Below, piece after piece: positions 55,859 to 62,010 of a stretch of DNA of 64,000 nucleotides; the first letter of the stretch is position 1, and every line of letters begins with the position of its first letter. Position numbers and translations under genes: made by a program. Below the pieces are notes generated by a model that was given only the letters and a program-made list of their open reading frames with translations, ran no database searches and was not told the DNA's origin. Location: NCBI RefSeq assembly GCF_014349235.1, contig NZ_JACSOH010000002.1:62001-126000 (forward strand), in the 5' to 3' direction. This DNA comes from Cytophaga sp. FL35 (GTDB taxonomy: Bacteria; Bacteroidota; Bacteroidia; Flavobacteriales; Flavobacteriaceae).

Positions 55859-55889
55859 TTTTCTTAACTTTAAGTAAACGTTAAGAAAA
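55859..55889 (+). repeat. Perfect inverted repeat immediately before a tiny membrane-peptide gene
   Basis: Arms TTTTCTTAAC (55859-55868) and GTTAAGAAAA (55880-55889), 10 of 10 paired, with an 11-nt loop. The last base of the right arm is the A of the ATG of the next gene, so the hairpin, if formed in RNA, would abut the start codon. No T run follows it. Confidence 0.6.
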
Positions 55890-56020
55890 TGGAACAAGAA
55901 CTACCCGTAGGCGTTAAAATGCTCAATCTATTTTTACGGATAATGGTAGGCTGCCTCGTCCTCGTTTTGGCAGCAGTCCCCGTAATGCTTATTTTAGATA
56001 AGATTGGACTTTTCGAGTAA
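55889..56020 (+). CDS. Single-span membrane peptide (43 residues)
   Basis: A short gene encoding 43 residues: a polar N-terminus (MEQELPVGVKMLNLFLR), one strongly hydrophobic helix (about residues 18-36, VGCLVLVLAAVPVMLIL) and a short charged end (DKIGLFE). No family is recognised. It has an ATG start, a TAA stop, a perfect inverted repeat ending at the start codon and a terminator 50 bp after the stop, so it looks like an independent transcript. It could be a small regulator or subunit of a membrane protein. Confidence is moderate because of its size. Confidence 0.55.
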   Translation: MEQELPVGVKMLNLFLRIMVGCLVLVLAAVPVMLILDKIGLFE

Positions 56021-56069: not shown

Positions 56070-56100
56070 TTAAATAGCCCCGTAAATGGGGCTATTTTGT
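56070..56100 (+). terminator. Intrinsic terminator after the 43-residue peptide gene
   Basis: AAATAGCCCC (56072-56081) pairs with GGGGCTATTT (56088-56097) around GTAAAT, followed by T residues. Confidence 0.85.
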
Positions 56101-56205: not shown

Positions 56206-56213
56206 TAACTTTG
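56206..56213 (+). promoter_or_regulatory. Candidate -7 element for the surface-modification run
   Basis: TAACTTTG is a full match to TAnnTTTG. It overlaps the possible TTG start at 56211, which rules that start out, and lies 30 bp before the ATG at 56244. No good -33 element is found at 19 bp. If used, it would start the transcript for the genes at 56244-61983. Confidence 0.45.
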
Positions 56214-56243: not shown

Positions 56244-57308
56244 ATGATTCAGACCATAACCAATAAGCAAGAGTGGAAAAAATGCATAAACACTTTTCCA
56301 CATCATGATTTTTACCACACGTATAGCTACCATGAATTATCTAAAAAACAAGAGGAACAGCCTATTCTGTTTTCTTATGAAGACGCTAATGGGCTTGTAG
56401 CCCTACCCCTTTTAATCAGAAATATAAAAGGCACCAATTACAAAGATGCCACCTCAGTTTATGGATATGCCGGACCGTTAGTTTACAAATTCAAAACGGA
56501 ATATGATAATTCAAAATTTAAAATTGAATTTCAAAAATTTCTTATTAGTGAAAATATCGTATCCATATTCTCTAGGCTACATCCATTTATAGAATACCAA
56601 GATCAAGTTTTAAAGGGGTTGGGCGAAATTTCCAATCCAGGTTCCCTCGTGAACATAGACTTAAAAAAACCTATTGAGGAGCAAAGGGCGTGTTATGGTA
56701 GCAGGCTCAAAACTTATCTGAACAAGGCCAGAAAAAGTTGTAGTGTTTATCTAGGCAGCACGGAAGAGGACATTCAGGAATTTATATCCATATATCACGA
56801 AAATATGGATCGGGTGGGAGCAAACGAAGGTTACTTTTTTGATGAAAGATATTTCTACAGGCTTTTATTAAGCTCTGAATATGAAACCGAACTTCTTCTT
56901 TGCAAATCAAATGAGACCGATGAAATAATTGCCGGGGCCATTTTTATTCTAACCGATGATATCGTGCAATATCATTTGTCTGGAGCGAAAACGGAATATT
57001 TAGACCTAGGAGGTATCAAACTAATAATAGACGAAATGCGATTAAGAGCTAATGAGATGGGCTTCAAATATTTTAATCTAGGAGGAGGAAGAGCCAACAG
57101 AGAAGACTCACTTTTGTCCTTTAAATCAAGCTTCAGTAAAGACCTGGTTCCCTTTAAACTATGGAAATATATTGTTAACCAAGAAATTTATGACTACCTA
57201 ATTGAAAAAGAGCTTAAAAGAGTGAGTAGTTCCATAACGGATGAAGAACTGGAGTTTTTCCCTGCATACAGAATTATCCCTAAAAAAAATTCTTTGACCA
57301 ATGGTTGA
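56244..57308 (+). CDS. FemAB/GNAT-like acyltransferase
   Basis: Cytoplasmic acyltransferase of about 354 residues with the two-GNAT fold of FemAB and peptidoglycan-bridge-type enzymes. Visible features are LPLLIRNIKG, YGYAGPLVYK, IFSRLHPFIEYQD, RLKTYLNKARKS, SIYHENMDRVGANEGYFFDE and YFNLGGGRANREDSLLSFKS. FemAB enzymes transfer amino acids from tRNA to muropeptides; relatives acylate other envelope substrates. The ATG at 56244 is chosen because a -7 element covers the earlier TTG. The gene overlaps the next by 8 bp, so they are translationally coupled. Confidence 0.78.
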   Translation: MIQTITNKQEWKKCINTFPHHDFYHTYSYHELSKKQEEQPILFSYEDANGLVALPLLIRNIKGTNYKDATSVYGYAGPLVYKFKTEYDNSKFKIEFQKFLISENIVSIFSRLHPFIEYQDQVLKGLGEISNPGSLVNIDLKKPIEEQRACYGSRLKTYLNKARKSCSVYLGSTEEDIQEFISIYHENMDRVGANEGYFFDERYFYRLLLSSEYETELLLCKSNETDEIIAGAIFILTDDIVQYHLSGAKTEYLDLGGIKLIIDEMRLRANEMGFKYFNLGGGRANREDSLLSFKSSFSKDLVPFKLWKYIVNQEIYDYLIEKELKRVSSSITDEELEFFPAYRIIPKKNSLTNG

Positions 57309-58545
57309 AAACAATCCATTTTTATCCAAGGAGTTCTCTGGCGTTTGGATGAAGCATTTTGGCGAATCCCAAGAAATTGAATCACCAAACTTTATAAATC
57401 CGGTTAAATTTATAAGGCATCCGAAACTACCGGTCAAGCAAAACATAGGTAGCACACTTACGAAAGGGATTGGCTACCAAAAGAGCAAGCCCGAAAAGAT
57501 GGAAATTAACGGTACGTATCTCCTTTATGATATACCTTCCTATTTTAACAATGAAACAGCAGAATCTAAAAAAATTGGATTTCTAAGCACTAAACAATAC
57601 CCCGGTTATTTAATTGAGCTTACCGCATTTGCCAACTACCAAGAGTACTTACAAAAGACTTTTAGCAAAAGTAGCCGCTACAAGCTTAATAAATACAAAA
57701 AGAGATTGGAGGAATGCTTTGATATAAGATATCAAATGATATGGGGGACTGTGGAAATCGAAGCTTATGATAAAATTTTTGATACGTTCAAAAATCTTTT
57801 GGAAAAGCGTTTTGATGACAAGGAGGTGTATAATAATAATTTGGACCCAAAGGAATGGAACTTTTACAAAGAGGTAGTCTACCCTTTACTCCTAGAGAAA
57901 AAAGCAGGCCTTTTTGTTATCTATGATGAGGAAACCCCTATTGGGATTACTCTTAATTACTTTTCTGACACTATTATTTTCGATGCCATAACAGTTTTTG
58001 ATATTGATTATGCCAAGTTTCATTTAGGGTCAGTGACCATAATGAAAATTCTAGAATGGGGATGGGAACACCATTTTAAGATTTTTGATTTCTCAAAAGG
58101 TCATTATGAATATAAAACGCGTTGGGCCACTCAAAAATATGATTTTGAATATCATATCTATTATGATAGAGATTCTATCAAATCTAAAATGCTTGCCAAT
58201 TGTATACAGCAATTTTATCAACTGAAACAACAATTAAGAGACAGAAAATTAAATGAAAGATTGCATAAACTCACCTACGTTTTAAAAAAGAATAAGAAGC
58301 TAAAAGAGAAAACATTCGATTATTCCTTTTCAAACCTGGAATCAGAAATTATACCAGACCATTTAGAAGAGTTAAATCCTAAGAAATTAGTGAATAAACA
58401 CCTTAAAACAATTGCTTTTGACTTTCTATATCTAAACAATGAGTGTATGAAAAATCTTAGAATCTATAAGAGCGACCAGAACGAAATTGACTATTTGCTC
58501 ATAGGAAACCAAAGGCAAATTGGGGTAAAAATCAATAATCACTAG
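57301..58545 (+). CDS. GNAT-type (CelD/BcsL-like) acyltransferase
   Basis: A 414-residue cytoplasmic acyltransferase in the Acetyltransf_6 group. The N-terminal 90 residues form a variable region, then come SRYKLNKYKKRLEE, NLLEKRFDDKEVYNNNLD, YPLLLEKKAGLFVIYDEETP and the family mark IFDFSKGHYEYKTRWATQ. It starts 8 bp inside the previous gene. It is clearly paralogous to the third acyltransferase at 61039: both have LLEKRFD(D/E)K followed by NNNL, and YPLLL then LFVIYD. Likely role: acylation of a sugar or lipid-linked precursor. It is followed by the MBOAT gene with a 22-bp gap. Confidence 0.8.
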   Translation: MVENNPFLSKEFSGVWMKHFGESQEIESPNFINPVKFIRHPKLPVKQNIGSTLTKGIGYQKSKPEKMEINGTYLLYDIPSYFNNETAESKKIGFLSTKQYPGYLIELTAFANYQEYLQKTFSKSSRYKLNKYKKRLEECFDIRYQMIWGTVEIEAYDKIFDTFKNLLEKRFDDKEVYNNNLDPKEWNFYKEVVYPLLLEKKAGLFVIYDEETPIGITLNYFSDTIIFDAITVFDIDYAKFHLGSVTIMKILEWGWEHHFKIFDFSKGHYEYKTRWATQKYDFEYHIYYDRDSIKSKMLANCIQQFYQLKQQLRDRKLNERLHKLTYVLKKNKKLKEKTFDYSFSNLESEIIPDHLEELNPKKLVNKHLKTIAFDFLYLNNECMKNLRIYKSDQNEIDYLLIGNQRQIGVKINNH

Positions 58546-58567
58546 AAATCAATTTAAACCACGATAC

Positions 58568-60019
58568 TTGTTATTTAACTCCTTAGAATTTTTACTATTT
58601 CTACCCTTGGTCTTCATTTTGTACTGGATGGTTTTTCACAAAAACCTAAGAGCCCAGAACATTCTGATCATCATTGCCAGTTATATTTTTTACGGCTGGT
58701 GGGATTGGCGTTTTCTTCTACTCATTTTAATGAGCACATTAGTAGACTTCTTTGTAGGTCAACAAATATATAAGCATCAAAATTCGGGGAAAGCAAAATA
58801 TTGGCTCTGGGTTAGCATGGCCTTCAATCTAGGACTATTAGGTTTTTTTAAATATTTCAACTTTTTTGTTGACTCATTTATTGACATGTGGTCATTCTTT
58901 GGGTACGAAATGAAAAGTACATGGACGCTAAGGGTGATTTTACCTGTAGGTATTTCGTTTTATACCTTCCAAACAATGTCGTATTCATTTGACATCTATT
59001 TTAAAAAACTGAAGCCCGCAAATGACCTTGTTGCTTTTACAGCCTTTGTTGCATTTTTTCCACAGCTAGTTGCCGGACCCATTGAAAGAGCTTCCAATTT
59101 GTTACACCAGATTTCGAATAAAAGAGTTTTCAATTTTGACCAGGCCTCTAGCGGGATTAAACTTATGCTTTGGGGTTTCTTCAAAAAACTGGTGATTGCC
59201 GATGCTTTGGCTCCCATTGTCGATGATATTTTTCAAAACTATAGTGATTATCCGGCATCTACACTTATACTAGGTGTTTGCCTTTTTAGCTTTCAGGTGT
59301 ATGGCGATTTCAGCGGTTATACGGACATTGCCCTAGGAACCGCAAAGTTATTGGGGGTTGAATTAATGTCTAACTTTAAGTTCCCTAACTTCTCGCGTAA
59401 CGTGGCCGAATATTGGCAACGTTGGCACATCTCGTTATCGACATGGTTCAGGCACTATCTTTATATTCCCTTGGGTGGTAATAGGGTAGGTAAACTTTTA
59501 TCCATTAGAAATATTACCATAATTTTCGTGGTTAGTGGCTTTTGGCATGGTGCGAATTGGACCTTTATTTTCTGGGGAGCATTGCATGCGCTTTTCTATA
59601 TTCCCGTATTCTTAATGGGAAGAAACCGAATCTATGCCGACAATGTAATAGCAGAAAATAGTTGGTTACCATCCCTAAAGGAAATCGGACAGGTATTATT
59701 GACCTTTGCTTTGGTCACTTTCTCCAGAATCTTTTTTAGGTCTCCCACCCTAACCGATTCTTTTGCCTACATTAATAAAATTATCGAAGATTTCAGTTAC
59801 GCTCCCTATGTTCATCCGATGGGTTACCGAATGATCGATTTTTATGTTTTGATAGCCCTATTTACCTTTTATGAATATCTAATTAGAAAAGACGAGCGAA
59901 ACCCGTTCAAATTTAAATCTAGATATGTGAGGTTTTTTGTATACTCTGTTCTCATATTACTTATGTTGCTATTCTATGATGATGGTGTCAATAGATCGTT
60001 TATTTATTTCCAATTTTAA
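58568..60019 (+). CDS. MBOAT-family O-acyltransferase (AlgI-like)
   Basis: A 483-residue polytopic membrane protein that passes acyl groups across the inner membrane to exported glycans. It has about ten helices, the start MLFNSLEFLLFLPLVFILYW, VGISFYTFQTMSYSFDIYF and the catalytic histidine region VVSGFWHGANWTFIFWGALH, as in AlgI and DltB. The start codon is TTG (58568); its N-terminus fits the family well, and no better ATG exists. It precedes an SGNH-type protein by 3 bp, matching the AlgI-AlgJ/X type of pairing. Confidence 0.93.
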   Translation: MLFNSLEFLLFLPLVFILYWMVFHKNLRAQNILIIIASYIFYGWWDWRFLLLILMSTLVDFFVGQQIYKHQNSGKAKYWLWVSMAFNLGLLGFFKYFNFFVDSFIDMWSFFGYEMKSTWTLRVILPVGISFYTFQTMSYSFDIYFKKLKPANDLVAFTAFVAFFPQLVAGPIERASNLLHQISNKRVFNFDQASSGIKLMLWGFFKKLVIADALAPIVDDIFQNYSDYPASTLILGVCLFSFQVYGDFSGYTDIALGTAKLLGVELMSNFKFPNFSRNVAEYWQRWHISLSTWFRHYLYIPLGGNRVGKLLSIRNITIIFVVSGFWHGANWTFIFWGALHALFYIPVFLMGRNRIYADNVIAENSWLPSLKEIGQVLLTFALVTFSRIFFRSPTLTDSFAYINKIIEDFSYAPYVHPMGYRMIDFYVLIALFTFYEYLIRKDERNPFKFKSRYVRFFVYSVLILLMLLFYDDGVNRSFIYFQF

Positions 60020-60022
60020 GGG

Positions 60023-60982
60023 ATGAAGAAATTTGTATTAAAATGCTTGGTTTACGTATTTCTGATTTTACTGACCTTAGAAGGATTGGTAAGGCTTTTA
60101 CACCTATACACCGAAGACCCACCGAGATACATTGATGAGTATGGTGTAGAAAAGCGTGTTCCCGGTAGTTCAGGATACGCTGTAACCGGAAATAGAAATC
60201 AGAATTTTTCAGAGTTCAGGATCAATGAAGAAGGTTTTAACTCCAAAAATGAATTCAACCCCACCGCGGAAGATTATGAAATAGCATTAATTGGAGATTC
60301 ATTCATAGAAGGCTTTCATCAAGATTACTACATTTCTACCGGCGAGAAAGTAGAAGAAAAAATCAAAGATATTAGCATATATGAATATGGTTACGCCGGT
60401 TATGACTTGGCGAATCAAATGCATTTGATACACGCTTATAAAGAACAATTTGAATTAATTGATAAGATAGTCATCTACCTTAATTATGAAAGCGACCTTT
60501 CTAGGGGCGAGTACAGCCCTAATTATGCAAGGATCAAAATGCTGAATTCCACACTTTTCAAGATTCGTGATAACATCAAACTTTTGGCCTACGGTTCAAA
60601 AATTGGCATTCTAGAACCTTTCAAAAGACTTGCTCAAGGCAAAGCTTTTAGGGAGCCCCAAAATGGCTATCAAGAAAACGAGGTAAAGCTGTCGCAAGAA
60701 GAAATAGACGCACAAGAATTAAAACGACTTAACAATTTCAAAAGCCTGGTCACTCTTTACGGTTTTGACAAAGAAAAAACGGTTATTCTGCTAGACTCAA
60801 GAAAAACGGCCGATAGCTTTTTAAGATACTGTAAAGCCGAAAATATTGAGGTTTTAGATTTTGCATCCCATTTTAAAGCATCAAAAAAATCGACCACCTT
60901 AATTTACGACCATCATTGGAATGAACATGGCAGGGAGCTGATTGCGAAAACTATAGCAAATTACATTAAGGAAAATCCATGA
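60023..60982 (+). CDS. SGNH/GDSL-type protein, probable partner of the MBOAT enzyme
   Basis: A 319-residue protein with an N-terminal membrane segment (residues 4-25) and a periplasmic SGNH hydrolase fold. The Ser nucleophile motif GDSFIEG is at 91-97 and the C-terminal catalytic motif DHHWNEHG is at 296-303. In AlgJ/AlgX-type pairs such a protein receives acyl groups from the MBOAT partner and transfers them to polysaccharide outside the membrane. It starts 3 bp after the MBOAT stop, which strongly suggests a functional pair. The donor and acceptor are unknown. Confidence 0.8.
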   Translation: MKKFVLKCLVYVFLILLTLEGLVRLLHLYTEDPPRYIDEYGVEKRVPGSSGYAVTGNRNQNFSEFRINEEGFNSKNEFNPTAEDYEIALIGDSFIEGFHQDYYISTGEKVEEKIKDISIYEYGYAGYDLANQMHLIHAYKEQFELIDKIVIYLNYESDLSRGEYSPNYARIKMLNSTLFKIRDNIKLLAYGSKIGILEPFKRLAQGKAFREPQNGYQENEVKLSQEEIDAQELKRLNNFKSLVTLYGFDKEKTVILLDSRKTADSFLRYCKAENIEVLDFASHFKASKKSTTLIYDHHWNEHGRELIAKTIANYIKENP

Positions 60983-61038
60983 TAACTTTTCTTTTTTAAC
61001 TGAATTAAAATGAAGAAAAATTCAATTTATATACAAAA

Positions 61039-61983
61039 TTGGCAATTGAAGTAAAATATCGGTTTGTTTTTGATTTTTTTATGAAGGGTACCGTACCTCC
61101 AATGTACAAAGCCCCCATAAAAAATAAATTGACCAACAAATCTTTGCCCATCTCAATCAATCAAGCAGATTTTAAGAATATAAAACTCATCACAGTTTGG
61201 GATATTCCCGAGTATATAGATGTGCCTGAAGCCCCCCTTAACAAGAATATTTCCCGAAGAAAAATACGCCAATATAAAGGTTTCTTAATAGATCTTACAG
61301 GTTCTAAAAGTGTTGACGATTATCTTTTGAAACAGCTAAGTGCACGCAATAGAAAAAAGCTTCGCTCAAAAAAGAAAAGACTGGAAGCTGATCACAACAT
61401 CGAGTACTGTTTCTTTTATGGCAAAATGGAAAGAGCCGCCTACGATAAGCTCTTTTCTCAATTCGCAGCTCTTCTTGAAAAGAGGTTCGACGAAAAAAGA
61501 GTACACAACAACAACTTACATATTTGGCATTATTATCAAGAATTAGCATACCCCCTTTTACTTAAAAAAAGAGCCTCTCTTTTTGTGATTTATGATAAGG
61601 AACAGCCCATAAACATTGCCCTTCACTTTCATTTAGAGGATACCGTTTTCAGTTATATTCAAACCTATGATATTGCATATTCTGACTACAATATGGGCGA
61701 TATAAGCATGTTAAAAAGGCTGGAACTATTTTTTAGGCTGGGTATTAAGACCATCGATTTATCAATGGGAACTACGGATTATAAAATCAAATGGTGCAAC
61801 TACCCTTATCATCTATACTTTCATCTGTTTTACAGAAAAAACAATCTGATTTCATGGAGTAAAATGATAACAACTGCCTATAAACTTAGATTAAAACAAT
61901 ACCTAAGAGATAAAGATATCTTAGGTAAGCGCTTTCGACTTGACAAACTGAAGTACCGCCTGAAAGGTGCTTCTTCAGCATAA
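61039..61983 (+). CDS. GNAT-type (CelD/BcsL-like) acyltransferase, third copy
   Basis: A protein of up to 314 residues, paralogous to the one at 57301: RKKLRSKKKRLEADH, ALLEKRFDEKRVHNNNLH, YPLLLKKRASLFVIYDKEQP and KTIDLSMGTTDYKIKWC. It lacks about 60-90 N-terminal residues of that copy. The start is uncertain: TTG at 61039, ATG at 61081, or a frameshifted gene, because an ATG at 61010 opens a 14-codon frame that ends just past 61050. It lies 56 bp after the SGNH gene, on the same strand, and is probably the last gene of the run; its terminator is shared with the converging gene. Confidence 0.72.
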   Translation: MAIEVKYRFVFDFFMKGTVPPMYKAPIKNKLTNKSLPISINQADFKNIKLITVWDIPEYIDVPEAPLNKNISRRKIRQYKGFLIDLTGSKSVDDYLLKQLSARNRKKLRSKKKRLEADHNIEYCFFYGKMERAAYDKLFSQFAALLEKRFDEKRVHNNNLHIWHYYQELAYPLLLKKRASLFVIYDKEQPINIALHFHLEDTVFSYIQTYDIAYSDYNMGDISMLKRLELFFRLGIKTIDLSMGTTDYKIKWCNYPYHLYFHLFYRKNNLISWSKMITTAYKLRLKQYLRDKDILGKRFRLDKLKYRLKGASSA

Positions 61984-62010
61984 AAAAGCCCCTGAAAAAT
62001 CAGAGGCTTA
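61981..62010 (-). terminator. Intrinsic terminator shared by the acyltransferase and the Gfo/Idh gene
   Basis: On the minus strand AAGCCTCTGA pairs with TCAGGGGCTT (one G-T pair) around TTTT, followed by TTTTTT. The plus-strand acyltransferase stop overlaps the A run. Confidence 0.75.

Follow-up and report, generated by a model that had tools for sequence, protein, structure and literature searches.

The gene block and its products

The 64,000-nucleotide stretch of the marine flavobacterium Cytophaga sp. FL35 analyzed here (positions 62,001–126,000 of contig NZ_JACSOH010000002.1, hereafter the window, from a genome of 81 contigs and 4.84 Mb) carries a block of five genes whose most probable role is to attach small groups, perhaps amino acids, to the units from which the outer sugar coat is made. 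A reading made beforehand from the letters alone (the sequence-only reading) had described five genes on one strand with an 8-base overlap followed by gaps of 22, 3 and 56 bases, and a TTG-started MBOAT gene; the gene coordinates agree on all of this, with every gene on the + strand. The families that it had named are recognized by Pfam and NCBIfam profiles (Pfam cut-offs: FemAB 24, Acetyltransf_6 22, MBOAT 27 and ALGX 26.5 bits), the ALGX match of the SGNH protein lying exactly at the cut-off.

56244..57308, + strand: FemAB-like gene, core gene 1; ATG start, 354 residues, PF02388 at 38 bits
57301..58545, + strand: CelD-like gene "CelD1", core gene 2; 414 residues, PF13480 at 49.9 bits
58568..60019, + strand: MBOAT gene, core gene 3; TTG start, 483 residues, PF03062 at 88.4 bits
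60023..60982, + strand: SGNH gene, core gene 4; 319 residues, PF16822 at 26.5 bits
61039..61983, + strand: CelD-like gene "CelD2", fifth gene; TTG start, 314 residues, PF13480 at 53.5 bits

For the FemAB gene, an in-frame TTG is also present at 56211. Besides the FemAB model, its product matches Acetyltransf_6 (27.2 bits). The AlphaFold2 model (pLDDT, the predicted local distance difference test score, of 92.9) has FemX, FemA and Sba18/Sbb17 as its nearest folds in the PDB, with Z-scores of 21.9–24.8 (23.3–24.8 for FemX and FemA); the next row is MprF with a Z-score of 17.8, and no other row exceeds that value. FemX enzymes are the sole relatives found by a sequence search of the PDB with E up to 0.1. 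In an alignment of 52 sequences (the window protein and 51 of 63 non-redundant relatives), Phe293-Lys294 (codons 57120–57125) is invariant in all 52 and aligns with the Phe-Lys pair of FemX, so that Lys294 matches FemX Lys305 in our own numbering. The coenzyme A (CoA) loop pattern [QR]xxGx[GA] occurs in one of the 52, a count that included no known CoA enzyme as control, and a basic helix with a mean net charge of +5.8 precedes the domain. The protein is a predicted double-GNAT protein nearest to the tRNA-dependent transferases.

The AlphaFold2 model of CelD1 (pLDDT 94.7) matches FemX with Z-scores of 16.2–17.0 over 256–265 residues (root mean square deviation 3.4–3.8), Sba18/Sbb17 with 15.8–15.9, FemA with 14.7 and MprF-type chains with 13.2–15.1; others reach at most 13.6. 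CelD1 is, on this model, a predicted double-GNAT protein of the FemX type, and the models of both proteins are confident. The CelD lysine (Lys272 of CelD1, codon 58114–58116; Lys249 of CelD2, codon 61783–61785) is invariant in all 68 aligned sequences (the two of the window and 66 of 127). It probably matches FemX Lys305, an equivalence made by position in the Pfam model only, because the FemAB and CelD profiles fail to align. None of the 68 carries the CoA-loop pattern, again with no known CoA enzyme as control, and the basic helix before the domain has a mean net charge of +6.2. The double-GNAT fold, the lysine, the rarity of the CoA-loop pattern and the basic helix fit tRNA-dependent enzymes, although the fold does not show the donor.

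The two CelD proteins are paralogs, as had been read from the shared blocks LLEKRFD, NNNL, YPLLL and LFVIYD, which are present in the translations, and they are 42% identical over CelD1 residues 74–330. The accompanying idea of a local duplication is rejected by a tree of 111 proteins (a quick tree, without bootstrap, of genes from 35 chosen loci and the two of the window), since CelD1 and CelD2 belong to two distinct clades, each with members in other genera. The CelD2 clade is separate, with 13 rows. By this tree, the two genes represent old, separate subfamilies.

The MBOAT contains a WHG motif (His codon 59546–59548) and a C-terminal FIYFQF shuttle motif (59999–60016, Tyr codon 60005–60007). 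All 48 MBOATs from the related loci, window excluded, have both WHG and a C-terminal FXYXXF; in the motif counts for MBOAT and SGNH, a few genomes that entered by two routes are counted twice. The SGNH protein has a hydrophobic N-terminal stretch, a GDS motif (Ser codon 60299–60301) and DHHWN near its C-terminus, and among its homologues GDS is found in 38 of 39, DxHW[NS] in 39 of 39 and both in 38 of 39. An MBOAT domain with its catalytic histidine and FXYXXF is therefore found next to an SGNH protein with its serine and Asp/His, and both proteins keep all of the acyl-relay residues that were tested. These features are shared with PatA/PatB, AlgI/AlgJ-AlgX and DltB/DltD. In contrast to those systems, the MBOAT scores below the cut-off of the DltB equivalog TIGR04091 (131.5 of 375 bits), and the pair is often embedded with FemAB and CelD genes. 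In PatA, the Tyr of FXYXXF carries the acyl group, and PatB accepts acetyl from a synthetic acetylated peptide (PMC12148441).

That PatA/PatB have the same relay residues, and that the FemAB-like protein has only FemX enzymes as sequence relatives in the PDB, would also suit a peptidoglycan module consisting of a FemAB peptide bridge enzyme and a PatA/PatB-like peptidoglycan O-acetyltransferase. We regard this as improbable. The FemAB-like protein reaches only 23.9 bits with the peptidoglycan-bridge equivalog NF047883 (cut-off 500), and an ordinary bridge enzyme, the grouping that the sequence-only reading had named as contrary to its proposal, is rejected on this basis. The distribution of the genes, described below, also argues against it.

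Linkage in relatives and change of place

Loci were taken from the 80 highest-ranking of 307 relatives, which yielded 79 loci and makes the locus counts lean toward close relatives. Open reading frames (ORFs) were called with our own script and labeled by the best phmmer matches to representatives; 77 of the 79 loci could be used for linkage (L062 and L093 received no FemAB label from the ORF caller), 66 of them flanked by 8 kb or more on each side. The nearest named relative by FemAB, among the matches listed, is Euzebyella saccharophila (94%).

The four genes FemAB-CelD1-MBOAT-SGNH stand uninterrupted in 12 of the 79 loci, representing seven named genera, and three more loci have the same order with an extra CelD; in a second arrangement, found in 9 of 79, SGNH-MBOAT is on the opposite strand. 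In the 66 long-flank loci, CelD1 is present in 32, MBOAT plus SGNH in 26 and CelD1 plus MBOAT in 20, with MBOAT and SGNH always together and never singly at the score limits used. Glycan genes lie within 10 kb in 46 of the 66. Frequent neighbors (20 regions plus the 79 loci) are Bac_transf phosphoglycosyltransferases, GT2/GT4 glycosyltransferases, PylC-like ATP-grasp proteins, HAD proteins and formyltransferases.

In the 199 genomes of the family, CelD is found in 46 and a FemAB match with E ≤1e-30 in 49, of which 38 have E ≤2.9e-100. With thresholds of E ≤2.9e-100 for FemAB and E ≤0.001 for CelD, 27 genomes have both, 19 CelD alone, 11 FemAB alone and 142 neither (Fisher p 8e-13, with relatedness ignored). 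In the phylum, the FemAB subfamily (E 1e-60) occurs in 9 of 395 genomes, a count that includes that of the window, and six of these belong to this family. The patchy presence at the stricter threshold would be odd for a cell-wall step, and this, like the recurrence of the core genes in polysaccharide loci, speaks against a peptidoglycan function.

On the 5′ side of the block lie a kdtA-like gene, sugar-transporter genes and a 43-residue ORF, and 3′ of CelD2 is a convergent gene that we take to be oxidoreductase-like. The five genes stand between the sugar transporter and the oxidoreductase in four genomes (the window's, E. saccharophila, E. marina and Pseudozobellia sp. WGM2). In Zobellia (L056, L057, L058 and L060), a polysaccharide locus instead reads Bac_transf, GT2, ATP-grasp, HAD, FemAB, CelD1, MBOAT, SGNH, CelD and large HAD, and G001 (L051) has the same gene order. 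In the four genomes with the block next to the sugar transporter, this locus (on contig C5 in the genome of the window) has the HAD gene directly before the large HAD gene, with 329–362 bases between them. Conversely, the site between transporter and oxidoreductase, hereafter the second site, is empty in Pareuzebyella (G204), a Pricia metagenome-assembled genome (G205) and G080, where transporter, small ORF and oxidoreductase adjoin, and in G001 kdtA, the small ORF and the oxidoreductase are side by side; these four hold the core in their polysaccharide loci (L064, L061, L046 and L051, respectively). Aurantibacter and two Zobellia are uninformative on the second site, because their oxidoreductase is not near kdtA.

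The polysaccharide locus without the core lies elsewhere in the genome, and three relatives have nothing inserted at the site that the core occupies; the core block has therefore been relocated in the Euzebyella/Pseudozobellia line. The commoner arrangement suggests a move from the polysaccharide locus to the second site, although gain from elsewhere together with loss at the old site may have had the same outcome. This separation of the block from its locus accounts for the absence of the rest of the glycan genes from the window. On another contig of the window genome, the polysaccharide locus contains a phosphoglycosyltransferase, a GT2 protein, a PylC-like ATP-grasp protein, a HAD protein and Wzy_C, the Wzy_C gene lying ∼11 kb from the HAD and ATP-grasp genes. 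This gene is a candidate for the polymerase that the sequence-only reading had not seen within the run. The same locus also holds a further MBOAT ending in FIYFQF (L141:16374-17816), with a 292-residue neighbor without a Pfam match (L141:15460-16338).

An exact five-gene orthology with Zobellia is rejected, as the fifth gene of Zobellia falls into a third CelD clade. The fifth genes of the window and Zobellia are thus not orthologous, and the moved core comprises four genes, which CelD2 joined by another route; a fixed five-gene module, as first proposed, does not hold. CelD2 shares its clade with position 2 of the CelD arrays described below and with a CelD that neighbors a further FemAB in G189 (L034). 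In G189, this second FemAB adjoins the CelD2 orthologue at L034:9522-11706, away from the main FemAB-CelD1-MBOAT-SGNH locus. Elsewhere, E. marina (G172) has a second FemAB at C3:535472, and FemAB genes with one internal stop, perhaps decaying copies, are found at G148:C40:99484, G129:C36:775190 and G036:C21:59578.

The 43-residue ORF (55889–56020), which has a single hydrophobic stretch and is 60–100% identical in the loci of seven relatives, is also kept in relatives' loci without the five-gene block, and is part of the pre-existing site at which the block now stands. Two terminator-like hairpins flank the genes:

56072..56097, − strand: terminator-like hairpin 5′ of the block, 10 pairs
61986..62009, − strand: terminator-like hairpin between CelD2 and the convergent oxidoreductase gene, 10 pairs

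We make no claim on the transcript of the block, because both hairpins read as terminators on the − strand only and terminator-like sites in the region are not above shuffled sequences (3, compared to a mean of 4.8). Sigma-70-like sites are ∼2 standard deviations above shuffles (34 compared to 23.0, standard deviation 5.2). A single promoter-like TAnnTTTG site at 56206 was given no weight, the window having 77 such sites on both strands.

CelD arrays in related genera

Nine of the 46 CelD-bearing genomes have six or more CelD matches, and five to seven CelD genes in a row are found in L037, L039, L040, L041, L043, L048 and L050. MBOAT or glycan genes are neighbors of these arrays. In the same quick tree, without bootstrap, the arrays of G072, G006, G019 and G070, which represent four genera, resolve into six clades, each consisting of the same array position from all four genomes. 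Support by the SH-aLRT (Shimodaira–Hasegawa-like approximate likelihood ratio test) reaches 100 at positions 1, 2, 4, 5 and 6; at position 3 it is 96, or 99 when an extra G070 copy is included. Five G120 genes are placed next to positions 2 to 6 (support 90–100). Position 2 lies in the clade of CelD2. The separation of the positions into clades that span several genera shows the arrays to be old, with members that stayed distinct. The collinear arrays are a larger finding than the block in the window.

Because the arrays are collinear, old and position-specific, CelD and FemAB could act on glycan precursors as a tRNA-dependent assembly line in which every member adds one residue. Arrays of six or seven genes would then build a defined short peptide on the repeat unit, and the window would hold a three-step version (FemAB, CelD1 and CelD2). 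We put this forward as a rather doubtful extension of the interpretation below.

Proposed role of the block

We read the block as a decoration module of a polymerized surface polysaccharide, with N-acylation, for which aminoacyl-tRNA would be the likely donor, followed by O-acylation outside the cell. As a whole this reading is reasonably probable; a role in decorating surface polysaccharide is, by itself, highly probable, and aminoacyl-tRNA is slightly favored as the donor. The FemAB and CelD-like proteins would be cytoplasmic double-GNAT transferases that put amino-acyl groups, most likely from aminoacyl-tRNA, or other acyl groups onto amines of a sugar precursor carried on undecaprenyl or on a nucleotide. 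Following export, the MBOAT would load an acyl group onto the Tyr of its own FIYFQF and pass it to the serine of the SGNH protein, which would esterify the glycan. The core would belong with the polysaccharide locus elsewhere in the genome. The division into cytoplasmic enzymes and an export-side pair had been proposed in the sequence-only reading and agrees with the occurrence of the core in polysaccharide loci of other genera, the intact relay residues and the FemAB score below the bridge model. Of that reading, the surface-glycan module stands, while the local duplication and the fixed five-gene unit do not.

Among known systems, the FemABX enzymes (Weissella FemX, BD-12 Orf11 and Sba18/Sbb17) share the double-GNAT fold, the basic helix and the near absence of the CoA-loop, as well as the Phe-Lys pair in the case of FemAB. 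The window proteins differ in that FemAB is below the bridge-enzyme cut-off and tied to polysaccharide genes, and in that the CelD profile has no FemX match among PDB sequences (a single match at E 0.6 is noise). Fem-like Orf11 uses Gly-tRNA to turn streptothrisamine into glycylthricin (PMC12945691) and is a precedent for an amino-sugar acceptor. The Fem-like GNAT HfsK of Caulobacter is proposed to acylate the holdfast polysaccharide, and deletions of HfsK paralogs add up (PMC5362036); HfsK is further characterized by c-di-GMP binding through its C-terminus. The likeness is one of description, and the excerpted text describes no MBOAT/SGNH partner for HfsK. The FemAB of XrtA/PEP-CTERM systems (TIGR03019) is, by name, one of an exopolysaccharide-linked system, but at 36.2 bits the window protein is far below its cut-off of 260.35. 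No account of a FemAB-CelD-MBOAT-SGNH module in Bacteroidota appears among the matches listed, which comprise titles and the starts of abstracts with few subscription journals covered, and such an absence is weak evidence of novelty.

Several results weigh against our interpretation. The first concern linkage: 28 of the 66 long-flank FemAB loci lack both CelD1 and MBOAT in the vicinity, so that of the conserved order expected by the sequence-only reading, the core order recurs while co-occurrence is partial. On a quick FemAB tree of 57 of the 79 loci, the minimum numbers of changes are 6 for CelD linkage, 8 for MBOAT linkage and 3 for glycan linkage, and no correlation of CelD with MBOAT linkage beyond shared descent could be shown by paired tests (4 independent pairs, median p 0.5). 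Linkage is common without being universal, and it loses significance when relatedness is taken into consideration. Incomplete and phylogenetically non-significant linkage is what chance neighbors, unrelated surface genes without a common function, would give; we consider this very improbable in view of the uninterrupted order in seven named genera, the two arrangements and the presence of the four genes together at the second site.

Further contrary points concern CelD and the donor. In Foldseek, CelD1 is matched first by 2hqy, a functionally uncharacterized Bacteroides protein; query-normalized TM-scores are only ∼0.4, and those of the Fem-type rows are modest. Between the FemAB and CelD profiles, hhalign finds no sequence homology (probability 0.1%). 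An AMP-binding and a carrier-protein gene are both labeled in 10 of the 79 FemAB loci and could supply a donor without tRNA. By Pfam and NCBIfam matches of representatives, DltA-like ligase and carrier-protein genes stand beside core genes in some loci; in NCBIfam the ligase is matched best by amino acid adenylation and next by DltA, neither of which reaches its cut-off.

These ligase and carrier genes are compatible with the same glycan module in which FemAB and CelD would use acyl-CoA or acyl/aminoacyl-ACP (acyl carrier protein), for instance for N-acylation of a diamino sugar by a hydroxy acid. A precedent exists in Flavobacterium psychrophilum, where the variable group of Qui2NAc4N is predicted to depend on ketoacyl-ACP synthases, a PglD-type acyltransferase taking this part in other strains (PMC6519341). 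We hold this donor possible but unlikely, given that the CoA-loop pattern is nearly absent, that the nearest solved folds include tRNA-dependent enzymes, and that neither a ligase nor a carrier gene lies in the five-gene block, the only part of the genome searched for them. Beside the DltA-like ligase, a protein of ∼365 residues recurs (L045:13304-14401, and genes so labeled in L097, L098, L110, L111, L114, L116, L119, L126 and L129); the copy at L045:13304-14401 has no Pfam or NCBIfam match at the limits used.

Read as a decoration module, the block joins two well-studied chemistries, Fem-type transfer and the MBOAT-SGNH acyl relay, in a flavobacterial surface glycan. The CelD arrays of related genera in turn pose a testable question, whether stepwise peptides are built on surface sugars from charged tRNA.

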